Origin: Endomicrobium sp.
GTDB lineage: Bacteria > Elusimicrobiota > Endomicrobiia > Endomicrobiales > Endomicrobiaceae
Assembly (NCBI GenBank): GCA_031290155.1
Contig: JAITOB010000008.1
Span: 78,603-142,602 of the forward strand
Reading direction: 5' to 3'
Length of the DNA: 64,000 nucleotides
Part shown: positions 5,910 through 35,785 of the stretch, piece after piece
How the letters are laid out: each line of letters begins with the position of its first letter
Numbering within the stretch: the first letter of the stretch is position 1
Translations under genes and position numbers: made by a program
The notes under the pieces: model-generated
Databases searched by the model: none
What the model was told of the DNA's origin: nothing
The model's input: the letters and a program-made list of their open reading frames with translations, nothing else

Positions 5910-7723
5910 AAGTTTTTAAAACATTTTTTTAAAAAAATAGTATCGCTTAATTTTATATTTTTGCTGTTGATGTCAGCGCATAGATTTATATTTTTTGTAC
6001 ATTACGGCAAAGGTATAGACTTAAATAGTTTATGTTGCGATATTTTAAGGGTATTTTGTATAGGAGTACGGTTTTGATTTATCTGTTTTCCAGTATAAAT
6101 ACCCGGCGCTGCTTTTGTTTATTGTCTCGTCTGTAACAGGCAAACAAGATTTTTTTAAACCGTTTATTAAATTTCTAAAATATTATTATACAATTCTTAT
6201 TGGTATTCTTTTCATTCTATTTTCCAAGATCATTTGAATATATTAATTTACGGTTTTTTGAAGACGATACAAGAGCTTTAATAAAGACTTTTTATGAAAG
6301 CTATAATTTTTGATAATCCTTGTGTTTTTTTTGCGGCGGATTTATTTATATCAAAGTTTATTTAAAACCTAAAAATTACAATTTTCTCTTGCCTAATATA
6401 ATTGTAAGAATTTTAATATCAATTATATTGTCTTTTTACTTTTCTATTTATAGGAGGAAGCGTCAGCTGGAATGCTGTAGGCGTGTATTCAGACGTATCT
6501 TCAAATACTTTTGTCAATAAAGTTGCAATTAATTGTATATTCACTTTACAAAGAGCAGAAGAAAGAAAAAACATTGATTATGTTGTCAAGACGGGATATG
6601 GAAATAATATCATGCGGGGTTTTGTCGATTTTTTAAATAAAGATAAGAAATTTATCCCTAAAAAGCATCCTGAAGAATTTGTTATATCAAAAACTTCTTT
6701 TAATAAAAAAATTAAAAATTTAAAACGACTGTAATTCTTATTGTAATGGAAAGTTTTGGAGGAGATTTAATTAAGTATAATTCTAAAAACTTTAATATTT
6801 TATCTCTCCTAAAAAAACATTTTGACGAAGATATTGTTTTCTATAATTTTTCATCTGAAGGCAATATTACTGTAAATGCTGTGGAAGCTACATTTTTGAA
6901 TACAGCAATAAGACCAAATGCTTTTTATATATCTCAATCAAAGTATGTTAAAAATATCTTTTTGCTTCATTATATCCCTATAAAAAAAACGGAGATGCAA
7001 CGTTTTTCATATATGGAGACAATTCAAGCTGGCGAAATATTGGGACGTTTGCATTAAATTCAGGTTTTGACAAAGCTTTGAGCGGGGGGGGTAATAAAGA
7101 AAAACTTTCAGAGAGGTCCTTGGGAATATATGACAAATATCTTTTTGGTTTAGTATTTGAAACTTTAGCGCAGACTGACAGCAATAAATTTATTTATGTT
7201 TTAACTACTACAAATCATCAAATCATCCGCCTTATTCTCTCCCGGGTAATTATAAAACTGCCTTTGGAAATCCCGAATTCTTTAAAAGACCAGACATCAA
7301 ATATAAATAATTTGAAAAAAAAGATTTGCGGCGTATCAATATGCAAACGAAATGTTAGGGCAGTTTATTGATAAAATCAAAAATTCAAAATATGCAGACA
7401 AGGCAATAATTGCCGTAACTGGCGATCACAGTTATAATGCATACCATATTGAAAGCTTTTTTGACAATATATGCGTTCCATTCTATTTGTATATTCCTAA
7501 AACCATAAATCCTAAAAATATTGACACACATATTTTAGGCTCTCATTTGGATATAATGCCCACTCTTTATAATCTTTTACTTTCTAATACAGAGTATATG
7601 TCTGAAGGAACAGATTTATTATCTAAAAAAGCTTTAAATAATACCATACTTTTATATTATACTTTTGACAGTAAACAGCAATTAGTAAAGTCATCTAAAA
7701 AAACGAACATAAAAAACTTTTAA
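5906..7723 (+). pseudogene. LTA-synthase/phosphoglycerol-transferase type sulfatase, multiply frameshifted
   Basis: TM-rich N-terminus, VILIVMESFGGDL, then YGDNSSWRNIGTFALNSGFDKALSGGGNKEKLS, AVTGDHSYNAYHIESFF...GSHLDIMPTLYNLL in different frames. Confidence 0.75.
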
Positions 7724-12214: not shown

Positions 12215-13117
12215 TGAGGAGTGGGATATAAAAGGATAAAATTATTGTGCCCTAATGGTGATAGTTTGGACATTACCGGGGCTGGTAACACTTGCGTAGC
12301 GGTTGGTTCAGGTATAATAACTTTAGAAAATGTCGGTTTGTGCAGTATAGGCACATCCGTAGTTTTTTATCTTATGAAGGCAAGCACTGTTAAAGATTAT
12401 AAAGGGTGTCTGCATTTTTTAATCATGTTGTAAAAGACTGTTACTATTCTATGGGCGTTACATTATCTACAGGAAGCAGTTTAGGCTGGTTTATAAAATA
12501 TTTTACCGGAAATTTAAGTTTTGAAGAGCTGCTTAGAGGTATTGATAGTGTAGAGGTAAGTTCAGATAATTTACTGTTTACTCCATATCTTGCTGGTGAG
12601 CGTACGCCTTACGCAGATAGTCAAATGCGAGGGAGTTTTATAAGCATAGATAGTAAGTTCGACTGCATTTTATAAGAGCCGTTGTTGAGGGGAATTACTT
12701 TTTCTCTTAAAGACTCAATGGAAATTATGAAAAAAATTGCCGATGAAATGTTTTGAATGTATAGTGTCTGTAGGCGTCGGTGCAAAAAATAGAGGTTGGC
12801 TGCAGATACGAGCAGATATTTTTATTCCAAAGTTACAAATCTTACTGTTGAGCAGGGACCGTCGTTTGGTGCTACAAATCATAGCAGCGGTTGAAATCGG
12901 CTGGTATAAAGATTTCAACTCTTGTGCTGATAAGTTTATTGCTTTTAGAGATACTTTTTATCCCGATAAAAAGAGAGTGGGGAAATACGAGAAAATATAC
13001 GAATTATACAAACAGGTATATCTGCCTACAAAAAATATCTGTAAAATAAAGTATAAAAGTATAGTTAAAACTAATAACGTGCTGAGCATTAAATATATTA
13101 ATGCTCAGCAATAAAGA
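12215..13117 (+). pseudogene. xylB: Xylulokinase remnant (N-terminal part missing, frameshifts)
   Basis: GAGNTCVAVGSGIITLENVGLCSIGTS / KGCLHFFNHVVKDCYYSMGVTLSTGSSLGWFIKYF / LLFTPYLAGERTPYADSQMRGSFI across frames. Confidence 0.82.
13080..13110. repeat. Perfect 13-bp inverted repeat with 5-nt loop
   Basis: TGCTGAGCATTAA-ATATA-TTAATGCTCAGCA at 13080-13110; no U-tract follows. Confidence 0.85.
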
Positions 13118-13132
13118 ATAGCAAAGGATGGA

Positions 13133-14460
13133 ATGAAAAACATCAAAAAAGTTTTGTGTTTTTTTTCGGAGCACTCGGAGGACTTTTATTTGGTTGTTTG
13201 GGAGTTATTTCAGGAGCTATTTTATTTATTAAGCCTGCAATGGGGCTGTGCGAATTTTAAGTTGCCGCCGTTGTAAGTTCCCTAATGTTTGGAGTAGTGA
13301 TCGGTGCGGCTACTATAAGCTCTTTATCTGATAAATCTGGCAGACGAAAATTAGTATTGACTACAGCATTGTGTTTTGTTTTGCTTCGCTTGTCAGTGCT
13401 TCTGCTATGGATTTTGTTTCTTTAACAATTTCAAGATTAGTTTTGGGTGCGGCGGTTGGCGGAGCTTCTGCGGTTGTCCCTCTTTATTTAGCGGAAATGG
13501 CGCCTGCAAACAAAAGAGGAATGTTGTCTGGCTTAAACCAGCTATGATTATGAGCGGATTTTTGTTGGCTTACTATAGTCAATCTTGTATTTGTAGAAAT
13601 CTCTGGCGGCTGGAGACTTATGTTGGAACTTAGTGCCCTACCTGCATCTCTATTGTTTTTACGAACTATTTTTTTACCAGAAAGTCCAAGATGGCTTAAT
13701 AAGTAAAGGTAAGGAATCAACTGCAAGAGATATTTTGAACAACTTAAGAGGCAGTGTCAACGAAGTAAAAAAAGAACTGAAGGAAATAAAAGATGGCAAT
13801 GCTAAAGAAGGTAACGGCGGATTTGTTATGTCAAAATGGGTCAGACCTGCGCTTATTATTGGCATAGAGTTTAGCGCATATTTCAACAAATAATATGGCT
13901 AATACTGTTCTTTATTATGCGCCAACAATATTTACAAATGTCGGGTTAGGTTCTTCTGTTGCTGTTTTAGGCACGGTTGGAATCGGCGTTTTAAATGTCA
14001 TAGTAACTTCGATAGCTTTACTTATTATGGATAAGTTTGATAGAAAAATGCTTATTGCGGGAAGTATTGGTATGATTGTGTCGTTGTTTGCATTAGGCAT
14101 GTTGTCGGAGTTTGTAGGCGCAAATTCTGCTGCTGCGTCTCGTGGTACTATAATATCCTGCTGTTTATATTATGTTTTCTGCGCTACTTGGGGATCAGTT
14201 GTGTGGATTATGGTAGGCGAAATATTCCCTCTAAAAGTCAGAGGGCTAGGTGTGAAATAAGCAGCGTTGCAAACCGGACCGCTAATATCTAATTGTATTT
14301 TTAACATTTCCACGGCTTTAAGTAGATTTGGTACTAAACTTTTTCTTCTTTATGCCGTTATTGCTGTTTTTTTCCATGTTGTTTGTAAAGTATAAAGTTT
14401 TTGAAACACGCGGACGCAGTTTAGAAGAAATAGAATCAACTTTACAAAAGGGTATATAGA
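13133..14460 (+). pseudogene. xylE: MFS sugar/H+ symporter (XylE-like), multiply frameshifted
   Basis: [100 protein letters not shown]. Confidence 0.85.
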
Positions 14461-14461
14461 T

Positions 14462-15540
14462 ATGAATTGTAAAAAACAACTTTTTTGGAGTTTGTAAAGG
14501 CCAGGATGTGTATTCTTTTATTTTTAGCAATGACAACGGATTTAAAATTGAGTGCATATCTTACGGAGCAATGTTAAAAGCTGCTTATTTCCGCGCTAAA
14601 GATAAAGGCTCCGATAGTGAAAACAAAAGTATTGTTTTAGGATACGATAATTTAGACGATTATTTAAAGGATACTTATTTTTTTTGGGTTCATCTCTGTT
14701 GGCAGAATAGGGAGCAAATTTTGAATTAGACGGCAAAATATATACAATATTGATAAAAATGATGGCATTAATAATCTGCACGGCGGCAAGAATGGATTTC
14801 ACTCTTTAATATGGAATGGAGAGATAATAGACGGCAAAAAAACAGGAGTGAAATTTTCTAAAGTCGTTAAATCTGACGAAGATATGTTTCCGGACAATAT
14901 GAGTTTAGAGATAACATATTTGTTGAACAATGAATATGAATTAGAAATAATTTTTAAAGCTTCTTCAGATAAAATTACTTTATTTAATCCTACAAATCAT
15001 GCTTATTTTAATCCTGATTTAAATCAGGATAACAGTATTTTAAATCATTATCTTACTCTCAATGCGGATTAAATGATTTGCAGACGTATAAAAATCTCAT
15101 TCTGTCAGGCAGTAGAATTGATGAAAATGACTGCGTATGATTTTACAAAAGAGCGTTTGATTGACGACAGTTTGAACATTTTAACAAAAAATATTCCGTT
15201 AAAGGCGCAGGACTTGATACTCCGTTCTGTTTAAATTCTTCTATTGCCGGCCTATACTGAAAATGCAGATAAAACTCGCTCTATAACTGTTACTACAGAT
15301 AGAAATGCCATAGTTGCATATACGTCAAATTATTTTGATAATAAACAATTAATAAATGGTATATATTCTAAACCTTATATAGGGATAGCGCTGGAAGTAC
15401 AAACTTTACCTGACGCAATTCATCATAAAGGGTTTGGAGATGTGATTACGAGGTCAAAAATAAAAGAATATAAGACAATTATAAAAATGTGTCAACATTA
15501 TTATAATTGTGAGAACATGATAAAAAGTATGGAGAGAAAA
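14462..15540 (+). pseudogene. galM: Aldose 1-epimerase, multiply frameshifted
   Basis: NDNGFKIECISYGAML, SIVLGYDNLDDYLKD, NNLHGGKNGFHSLIW, DKITLFNPTNHAYFNPDLNQD, PYIGIALEVQTLPDAIHHKGFGDVI. Confidence 0.85.
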
Positions 15541-15542
15541 AT

Positions 15543-16493
15543 ATGATTGAAACTTTTGGCAATAAGGCTACAAGGTTTGGTTTTGGAGATGCCCTTATAG
15601 AACTTGGAAAAACAAATCCCAAGGTTTTTGCTTTAGGAGCGGATACCACTGGCTCGGTTACAATGGGCAATTTTGCAAAAATGTTTCCTGACAGGTTTAT
15701 AAATGTTGGTATTGCAGAAACGAATTTAGTAGGCATAGCCTCGGGACTCGCCGTTGCTGGATTTATTCCATTTATATCAACTTACGGAGTTTTTGTAGCT
15801 GGAAGGCCGTGGGAGCAAATAAGAACAACTGTATGTTATTCTAATTTGAATGTAAAATTATGCGGTTCTCATGCCGGACTTATGGTAGGACCTGACGGCG
15901 CAACTCATCAAGCTTTGGAAGAAATTTCTATAATGAGATGTATTCCTAGAATGAAAGTTGTATGTCCATGTGATTTTCTTGAAACAAAAAAAGCGGTAAT
16001 GGCAAGCGCGTATTTAGAAGGCCCTGTGTATATAAGGTTTGGAAGAGAAAGTACGCCTATATTAACGAAAGAAGATAGTATTTTTGAAATAGGAAAAGCA
16101 AATGTTTTAAAAGACGGTAACGATGTTGCTATTATGGCGTGCGGTACGATGGTTTATGAATCTTTAATAGCTGCTGATATTTTAGAAAAAAAGGGTATAA
16201 ATGCGAAAGTTGTAAATATTCACACTGTTAAACCAATAGACGAAAAGGCGATTATTGATGCCGCCAAAGAATGCGGCGCAGTAGTAACTGCAGAAGAGCA
16301 TCAGCTTTATGGAGGATTTGGTTCTGCGGTTTCAGAAGTTTTAGTCAAAAATTATCCTGTTCCTGTTGAAATGATAGGTGTTAATGATAAATTTGGCGAG
16401 TCTGGCGATGCTATGGATCTGCTCTCTAAATTTGGATTGAGAGACGTAAATATTGTGGATGCGGTACTAAAGGTTTTAAAAAGAAAAAAGTGA
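15543..16493 (+). CDS. Transketolase, C-terminal subunit
   Basis: [70 protein letters not shown]. Confidence 0.94.
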
Positions 16494-18239: not shown

Positions 18240-19060
18240 GTGATTTATAAAAAAAAGAAATAGAGTTTATGGTGTTCAGTTATAATAACGAGGATATTTC
18301 GGACTATCAAATGTCGGCTTTTTTAATGTCTATATTTTTTACTGGTATGACCGATGAAGAGATATTTTTTTGACGGGCGTTATGGTAATTCTGATAATAC
18401 AATAGACTTGTCTAAATTAAATTTTATGTCTGCAGATAAACATTCCACAGGCGCAGTAGGAGACGGAACGTCTATCATAATTGCTCCCCCCTAAATTGTT
18501 TCAAGTACGGGTATTTGTGTGCCTATGATGGCTGGAAGAGGTTTAGGACATACAGGAGAGGGACGCTTGACAAACTACCAGGATTTAGAACTCAGTCCGA
18601 CAAAAAGAATTTTTAGAGTTTTTAGAATATTCAGGAGCAGCTATTATAGGACAGACATCGGATATCGCTCCTGTAGATAAAAATGTATGCGCTGAGAGAT
18701 ACAAAACTGCGGCGGTAGAATCTATACCGCTGATAAGCGCCGGAGTGAATGTCTAAAAAAATTGCGGAAGGCGTAAAAACTCTTGTTTTGGATGTAAAAA
18801 CAGGCGATGGTGCTTTTATGAAAGAATATTCTAAAGCAAAAGAACTTGTGCAAAAAATGATAATTATCGGCAAAAAGTTTGGAATAAATATGTCGGCTGC
18901 AATTACTGATATGGATACGCCTTTAGAAAATTGCGTGGGTAATTCGCTTGAAATTAAGTGGGCAGTAGAAATTTTGTTTTATAAAAAAACAGACGATTAC
19001 GTTGAGAAAAATGAAATTATTGCTGAACTTGTTTATAATTCTTTAAAAAATATAGAATAA
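18240..19060 (+). pseudogene. Pyrimidine-nucleoside/thymidine phosphorylase, frameshifted
   Basis: DLSKLNFMSADKHSTGAVGDGTSIIIAPP, VPMMAGRGLGHTGEGRL, GAAIIGQTSDIAPVDK, TLVLDVKTGDGAFMK, AAITDMDTPLENCVGNSLEI. Confidence 0.87.
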
Positions 19061-23618: not shown

Positions 23619-24440
23619 TTATACGCTCCAGTGTAATTTTGTCTTTAGAGTTTCAAAATAAGATCTGCTGCAGTTTTTTATAAGTTTAAGCGGCTTTTTA
23701 TATAGATAAAATTTTACTTTTGTTTCATTTGGAAGTTTATAATTTTCTTGACCGTCTATTGATATCATAATTTTACCGTTGCTGTCTTTGTTTTTTGTAA
23801 CAAATGAGATACTGCTTTTATCTGGCAGTATCATAGGTCTTTGCGTTAACGTATGCGGATAAATAGGTGTTAAAATAAATACCGGCAGATTTGGATACAC
23901 TATCGGTCCCGCGGCGGCTAGAGAATATGCAGTTGAACCGGTGGGTGTTGCAATAATCATTCCGTCACAGTTATATTCTACTATAAAGTTTTTATCTATG
24001 CTGACATCAACTGTAATAAGCTTACCTCGGGATAGAGATTGTATTACGCAGTCATTTGCGGCTAATGTTTTTTTTTTTTTGCCTTTATATTCAAACTCGG
24101 CAGCAAGTAAAACTCTTTTTTCAATTTTAAAGCCCGAAGATAAAATATTTTTTAAAAGCACAAATATTTCATTTGTGTCTGTGTCTGTTAAAAATCCAAG
24201 AGAGCCTAGATTTATACCCTTTACAGGTACTGATAAAGGAGAGAATGCTCTTATAACTTTAAGCATTGTGCCGTCTCCGGCTATCGATAAAACAAAATCA
24301 ACTTTTTTAGGTTTTATAGAGGAGGAATCACTTACAAATACTCTGCATTTATTTTTTCTAAGCCATGATGCAATTTCAAGTGCAATTTTTTTTGCATTTT
24401 CTTTTGATTTATTATAAATAATTCCAGCGCTGTAATTCAT
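23619..24440 (-). CDS. nadK: NAD kinase
   Basis: LSIAGDGTMLKVIRAFSPLSVPVKGINLGSLGFLTD, EYNCDGMIIATPTGSTAYSLAAAGPIVYPNLPVFILTPIYPHTL. Confidence 0.93.
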   Translation of the reverse strand: MNYSAGIIYNKSKENAKKIALEIASWLRKNKCRVFVSDSSSIKPKKVDFVLSIAGDGTMLKVIRAFSPLSVPVKGINLGSLGFLTDTDTNEIFVLLKNILSSGFKIEKRVLLAAEFEYKGKKKKTLAANDCVIQSLSRGKLITVDVSIDKNFIVEYNCDGMIIATPTGSTAYSLAAAGPIVYPNLPVFILTPIYPHTLTQRPMILPDKSSISFVTKNKDSNGKIMISIDGQENYKLPNETKVKFYLYKKPLKLIKNCSRSYFETLKTKLHWSV

Positions 24441-24699: not shown

Positions 24700-26360
24700 T
24701 GATATATTATTAAAATTGAAAATCGTAGTTATCAATAAAAATTTTTTCAGCTGCAGTATCAATTGATACGGGATAACCGTTAATATGTAAATCAAGAATC
24801 TTTACTTTTTCAATTGCGCTGAAATTGAAATCTATTAAGTCAGAAGATATTTTTTGTATCAAAACCGACAGTTATTATATTGGGGTTTTTGATTTTTGAA
24901 AAAGCAATAAACCGTTTAAACGAATCAATATAGTATCTATCGTAATATTTGCTGTTGTTAAAAAGAATAAATGTGTTTTTAACTATTTTTTATATGTAAA
25001 GCGGTTATGCTGCTGCTTTTATATACATTAAGAAATATTTTGTTTCTTTCATATATTGTAGGAAAGATTATGTCGCGTAAAACAAGAAAAGAAAAAAAGA
25101 AAAAGCTGTGTAATTGTCGATTTTGATATTGAGATTACAGAAAATTTGAAACTTCCTAAATATATTGCCGCCGATGAAACAAAATTAAGAAGCAGCAATA
25201 ATCGAGCATAATCCTGCAGCGTATTGGGATATAAAAGTTAAAATATAAAAAATAATTCCCGTAAGTGGTACGATTATTATATTTGTTAAAAAAGATATTA
25301 TTGAGACCTTACCAAAATAGTATGTACAAACTGGAATTAAAATTAGCTGCGCAGAAATTGTAACTGATAATACTTTGCAGAAAAAAGCAGTATTTTATTT
25401 TTGACGTTTTGGAATAATCCAAAAATATTGCTGTAAAAATATACAATCCCCATTGTCGCTCTGTATGACATTTGAAAAAGACGCTGTAAATAATTGCTGT
25501 GGGGCTGGAATATAAGTATAATTGATGCAGACAAGGCAAGAGAATTGTATATAAAGGTTCTCTGTTTAACGATAAAGATAAAATTTATACATAAAGACAT
25601 TATTGCCGATCTTAGTGTCGGAGGGTTTGTGCCGGCTGCTAAAGAGTAAAAAATATTGAAAGGTGTGCTCAATAGAAAAGCTGTTTTAAGGGTATCCCGT
25701 AAGTTTAAAGTAAAAAAATAATTATGAAACCTACGTGTAATTCGCTTACAACTAAAATATGCATTACACCTGCATTTGCAAAACTATTTTTGATATTCTG
25801 CGTCAGTGAACTTTTGTCACCTACGATCAATGGTTTTAAAATGTTGGAATAAGGTTTTTAAAGTAAACGTCTATTTTTATTATATCTTGTTGCATAGCAA
25901 GAGCAAATTTTTTTAAAACGTTAGGTTTTGATTCTATATACTCAAAAGAAGATATATTCAAAACTGTGTAGATTTCATTTCTTGCAAGATATTTTTGATA
26001 GTTGAATATCAAAGGAATGGAGTTAAAAGGTTTTTTAATTTGCCCTCAATATTAATTATATCGCCGTAAGATATTAAATATCCATTAGGCGAATTTACTA
26101 TAATTTTTTCATTAACTGCCCTTCTATTTATACTGGCGGTTTTCAATATAAATCTTTTACCGTTTTTACAGACCGAGGTAAAGATACAACTTTTCCTTCA
26201 ATTGATACAGGCGTATCGGCATCAGTTAATTTTATAAAGAAAACTTCGTTTACAACAGGAAAAATATCCAAGAGAATCCAATAACTAATATAGAAGCATA
26301 AATAATAAAAATAGTTATAACCGGTCTTTTACACAATACCTTTAGTATAAATGTCATATT
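24700..26360 (-). pseudogene. comEC: ComEC/Rec2-type DNA uptake channel, heavily degraded
   Basis: Minus-strand fragments LKPLIVGDKSSLTQNIKNSFANAGVMHILVVSELHVGFI and AGFQLSF..MGIVYFYSNIF, typical of ComEC; many stops and frameshifts. The 3' boundary is uncertain. Confidence 0.75.
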
Positions 26361-33059: not shown

Positions 33060-34341
33060 TTTATTACACCACCTTATATTATAACCGTTAACCGTTGTTA
33101 TTATAGATTTATAAAATGTACCCGTTGCCAAAGGTTTATTGTTTATTAGTATTGTATTGCCGTCAATTTCAGGCGATTGAAGAATGCTCTTCCTTTTATA
33201 TGGTATTTATCCTTTTTAAACAGCTTTCAGCCAAAAATTCAACAGAATATCCCTATTATCTTATAAATTTTTGCTTTAAAAACGTTATACTGAACATTTT
33301 CTATTGAAATTCTTCTTTTATTTGCATTAACGGCTTTTACCTGCTTTTTTAGTTTTGACGAGGGAGCTTTTTTTGTCGTGAATATTCAAAAACTCCAACA
33401 TACTGAAAATATCCATGATTTAAAATTTATAAGTTCCTTTATATCTTTTTCGGTTTCACCCGGGAAACCGGTAATTATAGATATCCTTAAAACAATATCA
33501 AGCAGTTTGATTGTTATTTTTTCAATAATTTTCGGTGTATTTAAAAGACGGTTTCATTGCAGATAAAATATTTTTACTTATGTGCTCTGTATGGGCACGT
33601 CTATATAGTTGCAAATTTTATGATCTTTAAACACTTCAAGTAGGTCGTCTGTAATGCTTGACGAGTGGGCATAAAGCAATCTTATCCATTTTAATCCGCT
33701 TATTTTGAAAGCTTCACAAGTAGTTTATCCAAAGCAAGAATGCCGTAAATATCCTTACCGTAATTTGTAGTATCTTGAGCTATCAATATAATTTCTTTTA
33801 TATCGCTCTCAGACAGCATTTTTGATTCGTCACCAAAGACTCTATTGTACGACTTTCATATTTTCCTCGTAATGCAGGTATTATGCAGAAGCTACATTTA
33901 TGACTGCCCCCTTCTTAAGTATGCTGACGGAATTGTTGAAGCCAGTATCCTGTAATTTGCATTATTTAGGCCGCCTGGAGACAGTAAAAACTTATCAAAT
34001 TTTTTATTTAAAATTAAATCAGGCAGGGATGCAATGTACCAGTGCCTACAAAACCGTCTATATCCGGAAAAAGCACAGACATTTTTTCTTTTAATAACTG
34101 AGGAAGACAGCCAGAAACATAATCTCGTAATCCGGTTTTTTTAATTTCTAAAATGTATACGTATACATTTTTCTGATTTTGTTTTTGCCGTTTTTATAAA
34201 AGAGCAGGTATGTATTACGGCAATGTTAGCCCTATTAATGTTATTACTTGCTGTGAAATTTTATTTTTTAAATCCCTAGCAATATTCGGCTTCAACCGTA
34301 TTTTTGGGATATCCTAAAGCTATTACTGCTACTTTTTGCAT
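33060..34341 (-). pseudogene. rimO: Ribosomal protein S12 methylthiotransferase RimO, heavily degraded
   Basis: Minus: [71 protein letters not shown]-like, C-terminal TRAM-like RKSILQSPEIDGNTILINN..ATGTFYKSIITTVNGYNI. Confidence 0.8.
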
Positions 34342-34348
34342 AATTGTC

Positions 34349-35081
34349 CTATTGTTGTTTATCTAAAATAATTGTATTAACATCTTGTTTAGCATTTGAA
34401 ACTACATCAACTTGTTTGTCGTTAAAGAATACTTTAATGCCAGGAGCATAACCTATTTTTAATATAAATATTTTATCAGCTTCCCATGATTTTTTGCTGC
34501 CAGAGGAAATAGTACCTTCAAAAACGATTTTATTATCAGAATATATTTTAATCCAAACATTGCTGACAGCCTCAATAACAAGTTTTTGTTTTGGAACAAT
34601 CACTGACGAGGCATCAGTATCAGTATTTTCTTCAATAATATTTATTGCACCTTTATTGTTTTGAGCGACCATATATGAAATACGTTTATTGATATATAAG
34701 AAAAATAGCAGAAGAATAGTTAGTGTTACGAATGTGATTGTTATTTTTTTAGAATTAATTTTTATTTTTTCAAAAAAAAAAATTAATTAATTTTGCTACG
34801 TAATTTAAAGATTTTTCGTTTTTAGCGGAAACCGTAGAAAGAGAATGCTTTTTTGTAGTATTATTATAATTCTCAATCAATTCTTCCGAATCAAAACCAA
34901 GATATCTAGCATATGTTTTTACAAAGCTTCTGTAATATACTTCTGCAAAAAAAATACTTATGTCATCGTTTTCAATAGCAGAAATGTATTTTTCTTGAAT
35001 TTTGGTAGATTTATGAACATCGTCAAGAGATATATTCATTGCTTCGCGTTTTTCTTTAAGCAGTTTTCCTATTTCTTTCAT
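34349..35081 (-). pseudogene. rodZ: RodZ-like HTH/TM protein disrupted by one extra base in a T11 homopolymer (possibly functional by slippage)
   Basis: HTH MKEIGKLLKEKREAMNISLDDVHKSTKIQEKYISAIENDD; stop directly after T11 tract (34772-34782); removing one T gives NFFFEKIKINSKKITITFVTLTILLLFFLYINKRISYMVAQNNKG... to the C-terminal domain. Confidence 0.8.
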
Positions 35082-35089
35082 TATTTCTC

Positions 35090-35785
35090 CTAATTGAGTT
35101 TTATTATTTCAACATTATCCGGTACATTAAATTTAAAGATATTTTTGTCAAATGCAGGATTAATAACATAATTTCTAAATATAATTTCTGATATAACTCC
35201 TTCGGATTCTGCAGTGGCTTTTATAGGATACATATTTGTTTTGGAAATATATATTTTTATACTACAGTTTTTGTTTTCAACCGGAGTAATTGTAATTACA
35301 GTATGTTTTTCACTATCTTCTATAAGACTTATTAAATTTGTTTTTTTTATTTTTCTCCAATTGTTTCCTAAATTTATGATAGTTGCCGGGACAAAATCAT
35401 CGTTAAATATATTATTTAAGCTGTCAATTACAGCCTGTTCATTTTCAGGAGTGTAGATCGTTATATTTTTGGCGTCAATATATAAATGCCGTTCTTGAGG
35501 TACTCTTTGTTGTATATAAATGCTGGTTGGTTTTTTTAAAAACAAAGTTCCAGAAGATTCTTGTTTTTCTTGTGTGGATATAAAAAATATTTTCTGAGTA
35601 TAATCTGCTTTTAAAGTATTTACTGTTTTGCCAACATCTTCCATTTGTGCAAAAAAAGTATTTATTTTAGTACCTGAGGTTTGAGTAAACCCTGTAGAAT
35701 AAACAATACTTAACGCAAAAATGTAGGATAACACGATAATTGTGTTGCTTCTCAATGACAAACCAACGTTACTTGCTATTTTCAC
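35090..35785 (-). CDS. lolA: Outer-membrane lipoprotein carrier protein LolA
   Basis: VNTLKADYTQKIFFISTQEKQESSGTLFLKKPTSIYIQQRVPQERHLYIDAKNITIYTPENEQ. Confidence 0.85.
   Translation of the reverse strand: MKIASNVGLSLRSNTIIVLSYIFALSIVYSTGFTQTSGTKINTFFAQMEDVGKTVNTLKADYTQKIFFISTQEKQESSGTLFLKKPTSIYIQQRVPQERHLYIDAKNITIYTPENEQAVIDSLNNIFNDDFVPATIINLGNNWRKIKKTNLISLIEDSEKHTVITITPVENKNCSIKIYISKTNMYPIKATAESEGVISEIIFRNYVINPAFDKNIFKFNVPDNVEIIKLN

Follow-up and report, generated by a model that had tools for sequence, protein, structure and literature searches.

A one-base frameshift in an eleven-T tract interrupts rodZ in an Endomicrobium genome: a probable recent null allele

Results

Organization of the interrupted rodZ locus

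The window, i.e. the whole stretch of 64,000 nucleotides analysed here, comes from contig C32; the assembly comprises 1.11 Mb in 36 contigs and is ~85% complete. The genome belongs to an Endomicrobium/Endomicrobiellum endosymbiont of termite-gut flagellates, and a search with the RodZ alignment found, as named relatives, MAGs of Endomicrobiellum/Endomicrobium from flagellates and termite guts. The gene order pnp-accB-ftsK-lolA-rodZ-rimO-pgsA-pgpA is common to the window and to two relatives (G002 and G021). Within this order, all window genes are intact except rodZ and rimO. The features of the locus are collected in Table 1.

Table 1. Features of the interrupted rodZ gene and its two neighbours, with positions in the window.
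Feature	Position	Strand	Basis
rodZ, interrupted gene, 733 bp	34349..35081	-	Between lolA and the rimO wreck
Upstream ORF, 103 aa, RodZ HTH domain (HTH_25), ends KLINFFF followed by the stop	34770..35081	-	ORF and Pfam
T11 homopolymer, site of the frame break	34772..34782	-	Sequence; missing in 15 intact relatives
Downstream open frame, from 2 codons before the tract to TAG 34349	34349..34786	-	Frame scan
Predicted transmembrane (TM) segment ITITFVTLTILLLFFLYI, downstream frame	34691..34744	-	Hydrophobic stretch; aligned to the TM segment of relatives
RodZ_C domain (PF13464)	34373..34579	-	Pfam profile match
lolA, intact upstream neighbour	35090..35785	-	Pfam, gene order, comparison
rimO remnant downstream of rodZ, ~12 frame-breaking indels and 3 stops, old-pseudogene contrast case	33060..34344	-	Gene order, comparison

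The gene resembles RodZ in domain order, sequence and gene neighbourhood, and it aligns over its full length with the intact genes of relatives. Pfam profiles detected an N-terminal HTH_25 domain in the first half (E 6.5e-21) and RodZ_C in the second half (E about 1.9e-15 to 2.4e-15), with one hydrophobic, TM-like segment following the cytoplasmic domain. Unlike RodZ, however, the window gene lies in two frames and not in one, the T11 tract running into a TGA stop.

An earlier note on this DNA had placed the end of the HTH half exactly at the T11 tract and had read on from there, with one T deleted, through a TM segment and the C-terminal domain to the end of the gene. Both observations were confirmed. 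The last T of the tract is the first base of the TGA that ends the HTH ORF, and removing one T yields 243 stop-free codons. The 140 codons beyond the tract comprise a basic stretch, the TM segment and the RodZ_C domain. A TAA shuts the downstream frame just 2 codons ahead of T11, so that the two frames can be joined solely inside or right at the tract; the break therefore sits in the tract itself. T11 is the longest A/T run of the window rodZ, and its occurrence is unremarkable for the composition (~5.7 matches expected in shuffles versus 4 seen); what sets it apart is its place at a lone frame break. No intrinsic terminator was found at the T run, and a search of plasmid records for the rodZ gene gave no match.

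The window contains many wrecked genes. Fragments of such genes lie at 6483-7723, 12406-14260, 15244-15546, 18749-19060 and 25343-25672, and the types represented are sulfatase, sugar kinase, sugar transporter, aldose epimerase, glycosyl transferase family 3 and ComEC-like.

Conservation of the gene and age of the lesion

When compared with the intact G021 gene, the window rodZ carries the tract as its sole frame-breaking indel, as against ~12 in the adjacent rimO remnant, in agreement with the earlier note's contrast between one lesion here and many in neighbouring pseudogenes. Neither this comparison nor the reading with one T fewer revealed any stop or indel beyond the tract. Thus, the window rodZ would be at most a very young pseudogene. 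In 15 other genomes of the genus rodZ occupies a single frame, and none of the 15 has a tract at the T11 position, the longest A/T run in these genes being 7-9. The tract is thus common to no relative in this comparison, which covers other species of the genus.

The part of the gene behind the tract is well conserved. It retains every one of the 19 residues invariant in relatives (19/19). Constraint was assessed by Nei-Gojobori counts of pN/pS together with invariant-site counts and a simulation, which replaced a formal branch-wise dN/dS. Between the window and relatives, pN/pS of RodZ_C is 0.35-0.38, close to the values for an intact-intact pair (0.40) and for the neighbouring pgsA (0.34); these values cover the whole branch, from which the share after the lesion is inseparable. 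In the simulation of neutral drift, which for simplicity starts from the present window sequence, the chance of acquiring no stop while keeping the invariant residues falls below 5% after ~0.04 substitutions per site. The stop-free frame alone limits neutral drift to 0.1-0.15 substitutions per site (<~6% at ~0.15). These limits are small beside the synonymous divergence from the nearest relatives, which is ~0.8-1. The conserved downstream half, set against the decayed rodZ of G041 and the decayed rimO, indicates that selection on the window gene ceased only a short while ago, or still acts, or that the gene is misassembled by one base.

Decay and loss of rodZ in relatives

Wrecked rodZ genes with multiple lesions occupy the syntenic place in G041, G019 and G020. 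The G041 copy, although 92% identical in nucleotides to the intact G021 gene, contains 8 frame-breaking indels. In eight further genomes (G013, G003, G030, G028, G031, G004, G009 and G034), rodZ was not detected behind ftsK. Whole-genome searches with HTH_25 and RodZ_C agree with these losses at the syntenic site. On the FtsK tree, in which several deep forks are weak, at least 5 changes between intact and broken or lost rodZ are needed. MreB is retained in nearly all genomes of the genus, including those devoid of RodZ. Since rodZ is wrecked or missing in relatives that keep MreB, it is dispensable in the genus, and a null allele is therefore tolerable.

The rodZ of G008 was not counted as a broken copy. 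In G008:C113 its start region occurs as an inverted duplication accompanied by a run of Ns, a pattern that is typical of assembly chimeras and probably arose in amplification or assembly.

A/T runs across the genome and mismatch repair

All 86 A/T runs of at least 9 in the genome of the window were examined, by pattern searches and in the stretches surrounding the runs. The majority leave the frame of the open gene that holds them undisturbed; among these are an A13 in nadK, several T10 and dozens of T9. The signature of a frame break was seen at three of the 86, and only at rodZ is it the lone lesion of its gene. The other two breaks, in a TPR protein (C10:66456) and in a BatA-like VWA protein (C18:59313), were set aside because both genes carry further frameshifts. 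That rodZ is the sole lone break argues against a systematic homopolymer error and also against a genome-wide reliance on slippage.

The nadK run (24068-24080, in the intact NAD kinase gene at 23619-24440 on the minus strand) is the longest in the window and exceeds the rodZ tract. The longest runs of the genome sit in multi-lesion pseudogenes, namely an A14 in a radical-SAM gene (G000:C15) and a T18 in a MATE-type transporter (G000:C34).

MutS loss raises indel rates in homopolymer runs. MutS is present in 28 of 42 genomes of the genus, among them the nearest relatives by FtsK (G037, G021, G002 and G041), and was not found in the ~85% complete assembly studied here. Its absence is likely but not certain, because the assembly is incomplete and the gene could lie in a gap; a missing MutS would favour homopolymer indels. 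MutS is also missing from the G018/G019/G020 clade and from G008, G028, G031 and G033, and several of the MutS-less genomes of the genus are also without an intact rodZ.

Discussion

The rodZ lesion is of a kind already known from Buchnera and Blochmannia. Single homopolymer frameshifts in these insect endosymbionts are reportedly corrected in part by transcriptional slippage (Tamas et al. 2008; Wernegreen et al. 2010). The window gene shares with them the AT-rich endosymbiont genome, the single indel in an A/T run of ~10-11 and the conservation of the rest of the gene. It differs in that the run is poly(T) on the coding strand, whereas theirs are mostly poly(A), and in that the gene is dispensable in relatives. 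Moreover, Blochmannia has several single-lesion tract genes, whereas just one was found here. The gene also resembles the young, slippage-started pseudogenes of reduced genomes, in which a single lesion in a run is accompanied by independent losses and wrecks in kin. Unlike these, however, rodZ has been caught before a second lesion. Of the marks of a decaying pseudogene, it shows dispensability in relatives but not accumulated lesions.

We consider it probable, on balance, that rodZ is a recent null produced by replication slippage, and likely that some transcriptional slippage correction accompanies it as a by-product. One recent slip of +1 base during DNA replication would have occurred in the T run of the cytoplasmic linker, in an endosymbiont lineage that has apparently lost MutS and in which rodZ is dispensable. 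The main product would then be a presumably inactive, soluble HTH fragment of 103 aa that lacks both the membrane anchor and the periplasmic domain. Some slippage of RNA polymerase at U11 is probable, and full-length messages may thus make up a minority; such corrected messages would be expected as a by-product. If this is so, the locus captures the initial step by which a cell-shape gene is lost. The later stages (G041, G019 and G020, then absence) are visible in the same genus beside intact rodZ copies, with MreB retained. The locus would be a usable natural case in which to ask whether slippage on long runs postpones gene loss in symbionts, provided only that T11 is confirmed in reads and that its transcripts are measured.

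The earlier note had proposed that the frameshift is rescued, i.e. that it is fixed but rodZ still functions because RNA polymerase slips on T11 and leaves one U out of a useful share of the messages. The note's single lesion at a slippery tract stands. The lesion coincides with the longest A/T run that the gene has, and the downstream half is constrained over the branch as a whole. As in slippage-rescued genes, it is a single frame-breaking indel in a homopolymer of at least 9. Other genes tolerate long runs in frame, such as the A13 of nadK. There is also precedent in insect endosymbionts, where 12-50% of transcripts from long poly(A) runs were corrected in two species (PMC5009743) and where eight genes of Blochmannia vafer have homopolymer frameshifts that are slippage candidates (PMC3017870), although the authors of the latter study pointed out that such frameshifts may merely be recent. 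A need for rescue is argued against, however, by the relatives that keep MreB while their rodZ is wrecked or missing, and by the lack of a second lone-lesion tract gene among the 86 runs. Furthermore, a rescued frameshift would be expected to be conserved across strains or species, whereas this tract is kept in no relative within the genus, and in Buchnera a survey of the whole transcriptome detected no transcription indel that restored a frame (PMC5574713). Taken together, the precedents and this null survey lead us to expect some U10 messages and to keep functional rescue as a candidate, one of three possible readings and not the most likely; we regard it as unlikely. Downstream conservation does not establish it, because a mutation that is very recent, or an assembly error of one base, predicts the same conservation equally well. 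Sequence alone cannot choose among these three, and a young null and a rescued gene look the same because conservation fits either. An extension of the rescue, in which slippage on T11 in a MutS-less Endomicrobia lineage yields full-length RodZ beside the soluble HTH fragment and thereby sets a lowered RodZ dose, seems doubtful to us. If true, Elusimicrobiota would have its first slippage-rescued gene.

It is also rather improbable that the lesion is not fixed at all, the tract length being wrong in the assembly or the population carrying T10 and T11 side by side. Nothing in a draft MAG is harder than a homopolymer of 11, the rest of rodZ is intact, and mixed tract lengths would be expected if MutS were lost; however, the other long genic runs (A13 in nadK, the T10 and T9 runs) are in frame, so that errors are not systematic. 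A split of rodZ into two proteins, one with the HTH domain and one with the TM segment and RodZ_C, would agree with the conservation of both halves. It was rejected as scarcely credible because none of the codons ATG, GTG and TTG occurs in the downstream frame ahead of the TM segment; the first ATG of that frame, at 34672, lies behind the segment and would give an unanchored, cytoplasmic RodZ_C. Very little more can be said for a +1 shift of ribosomes at UUU UGA, in which the P-site tRNA would re-pair on UUU while a slow stop occupies the A site. As in the programmed +1 frameshift of prfB (CUU URA), a slippery codon is directly followed by a stop; the zero frame meets UGA directly behind UUU, re-pairing would be perfect, and a prfB-type site does occur in this genome, where AGGAGG stands 3 nt ahead of CTT TAA. 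Unlike the prfB site, however, that of rodZ has no Shine-Dalgarno-like stimulator upstream and is conserved in no relative, and no stable RNA structure flanks it (fold z +0.6 upstream and -1.3 downstream). We therefore hold this to be highly improbable.

The usual prfB frameshift site is CTT TGA. The prfB gene of this genome, at the end of G000:C4, has its programmed +1 site at CTT TAA, with AGGAGG just upstream.
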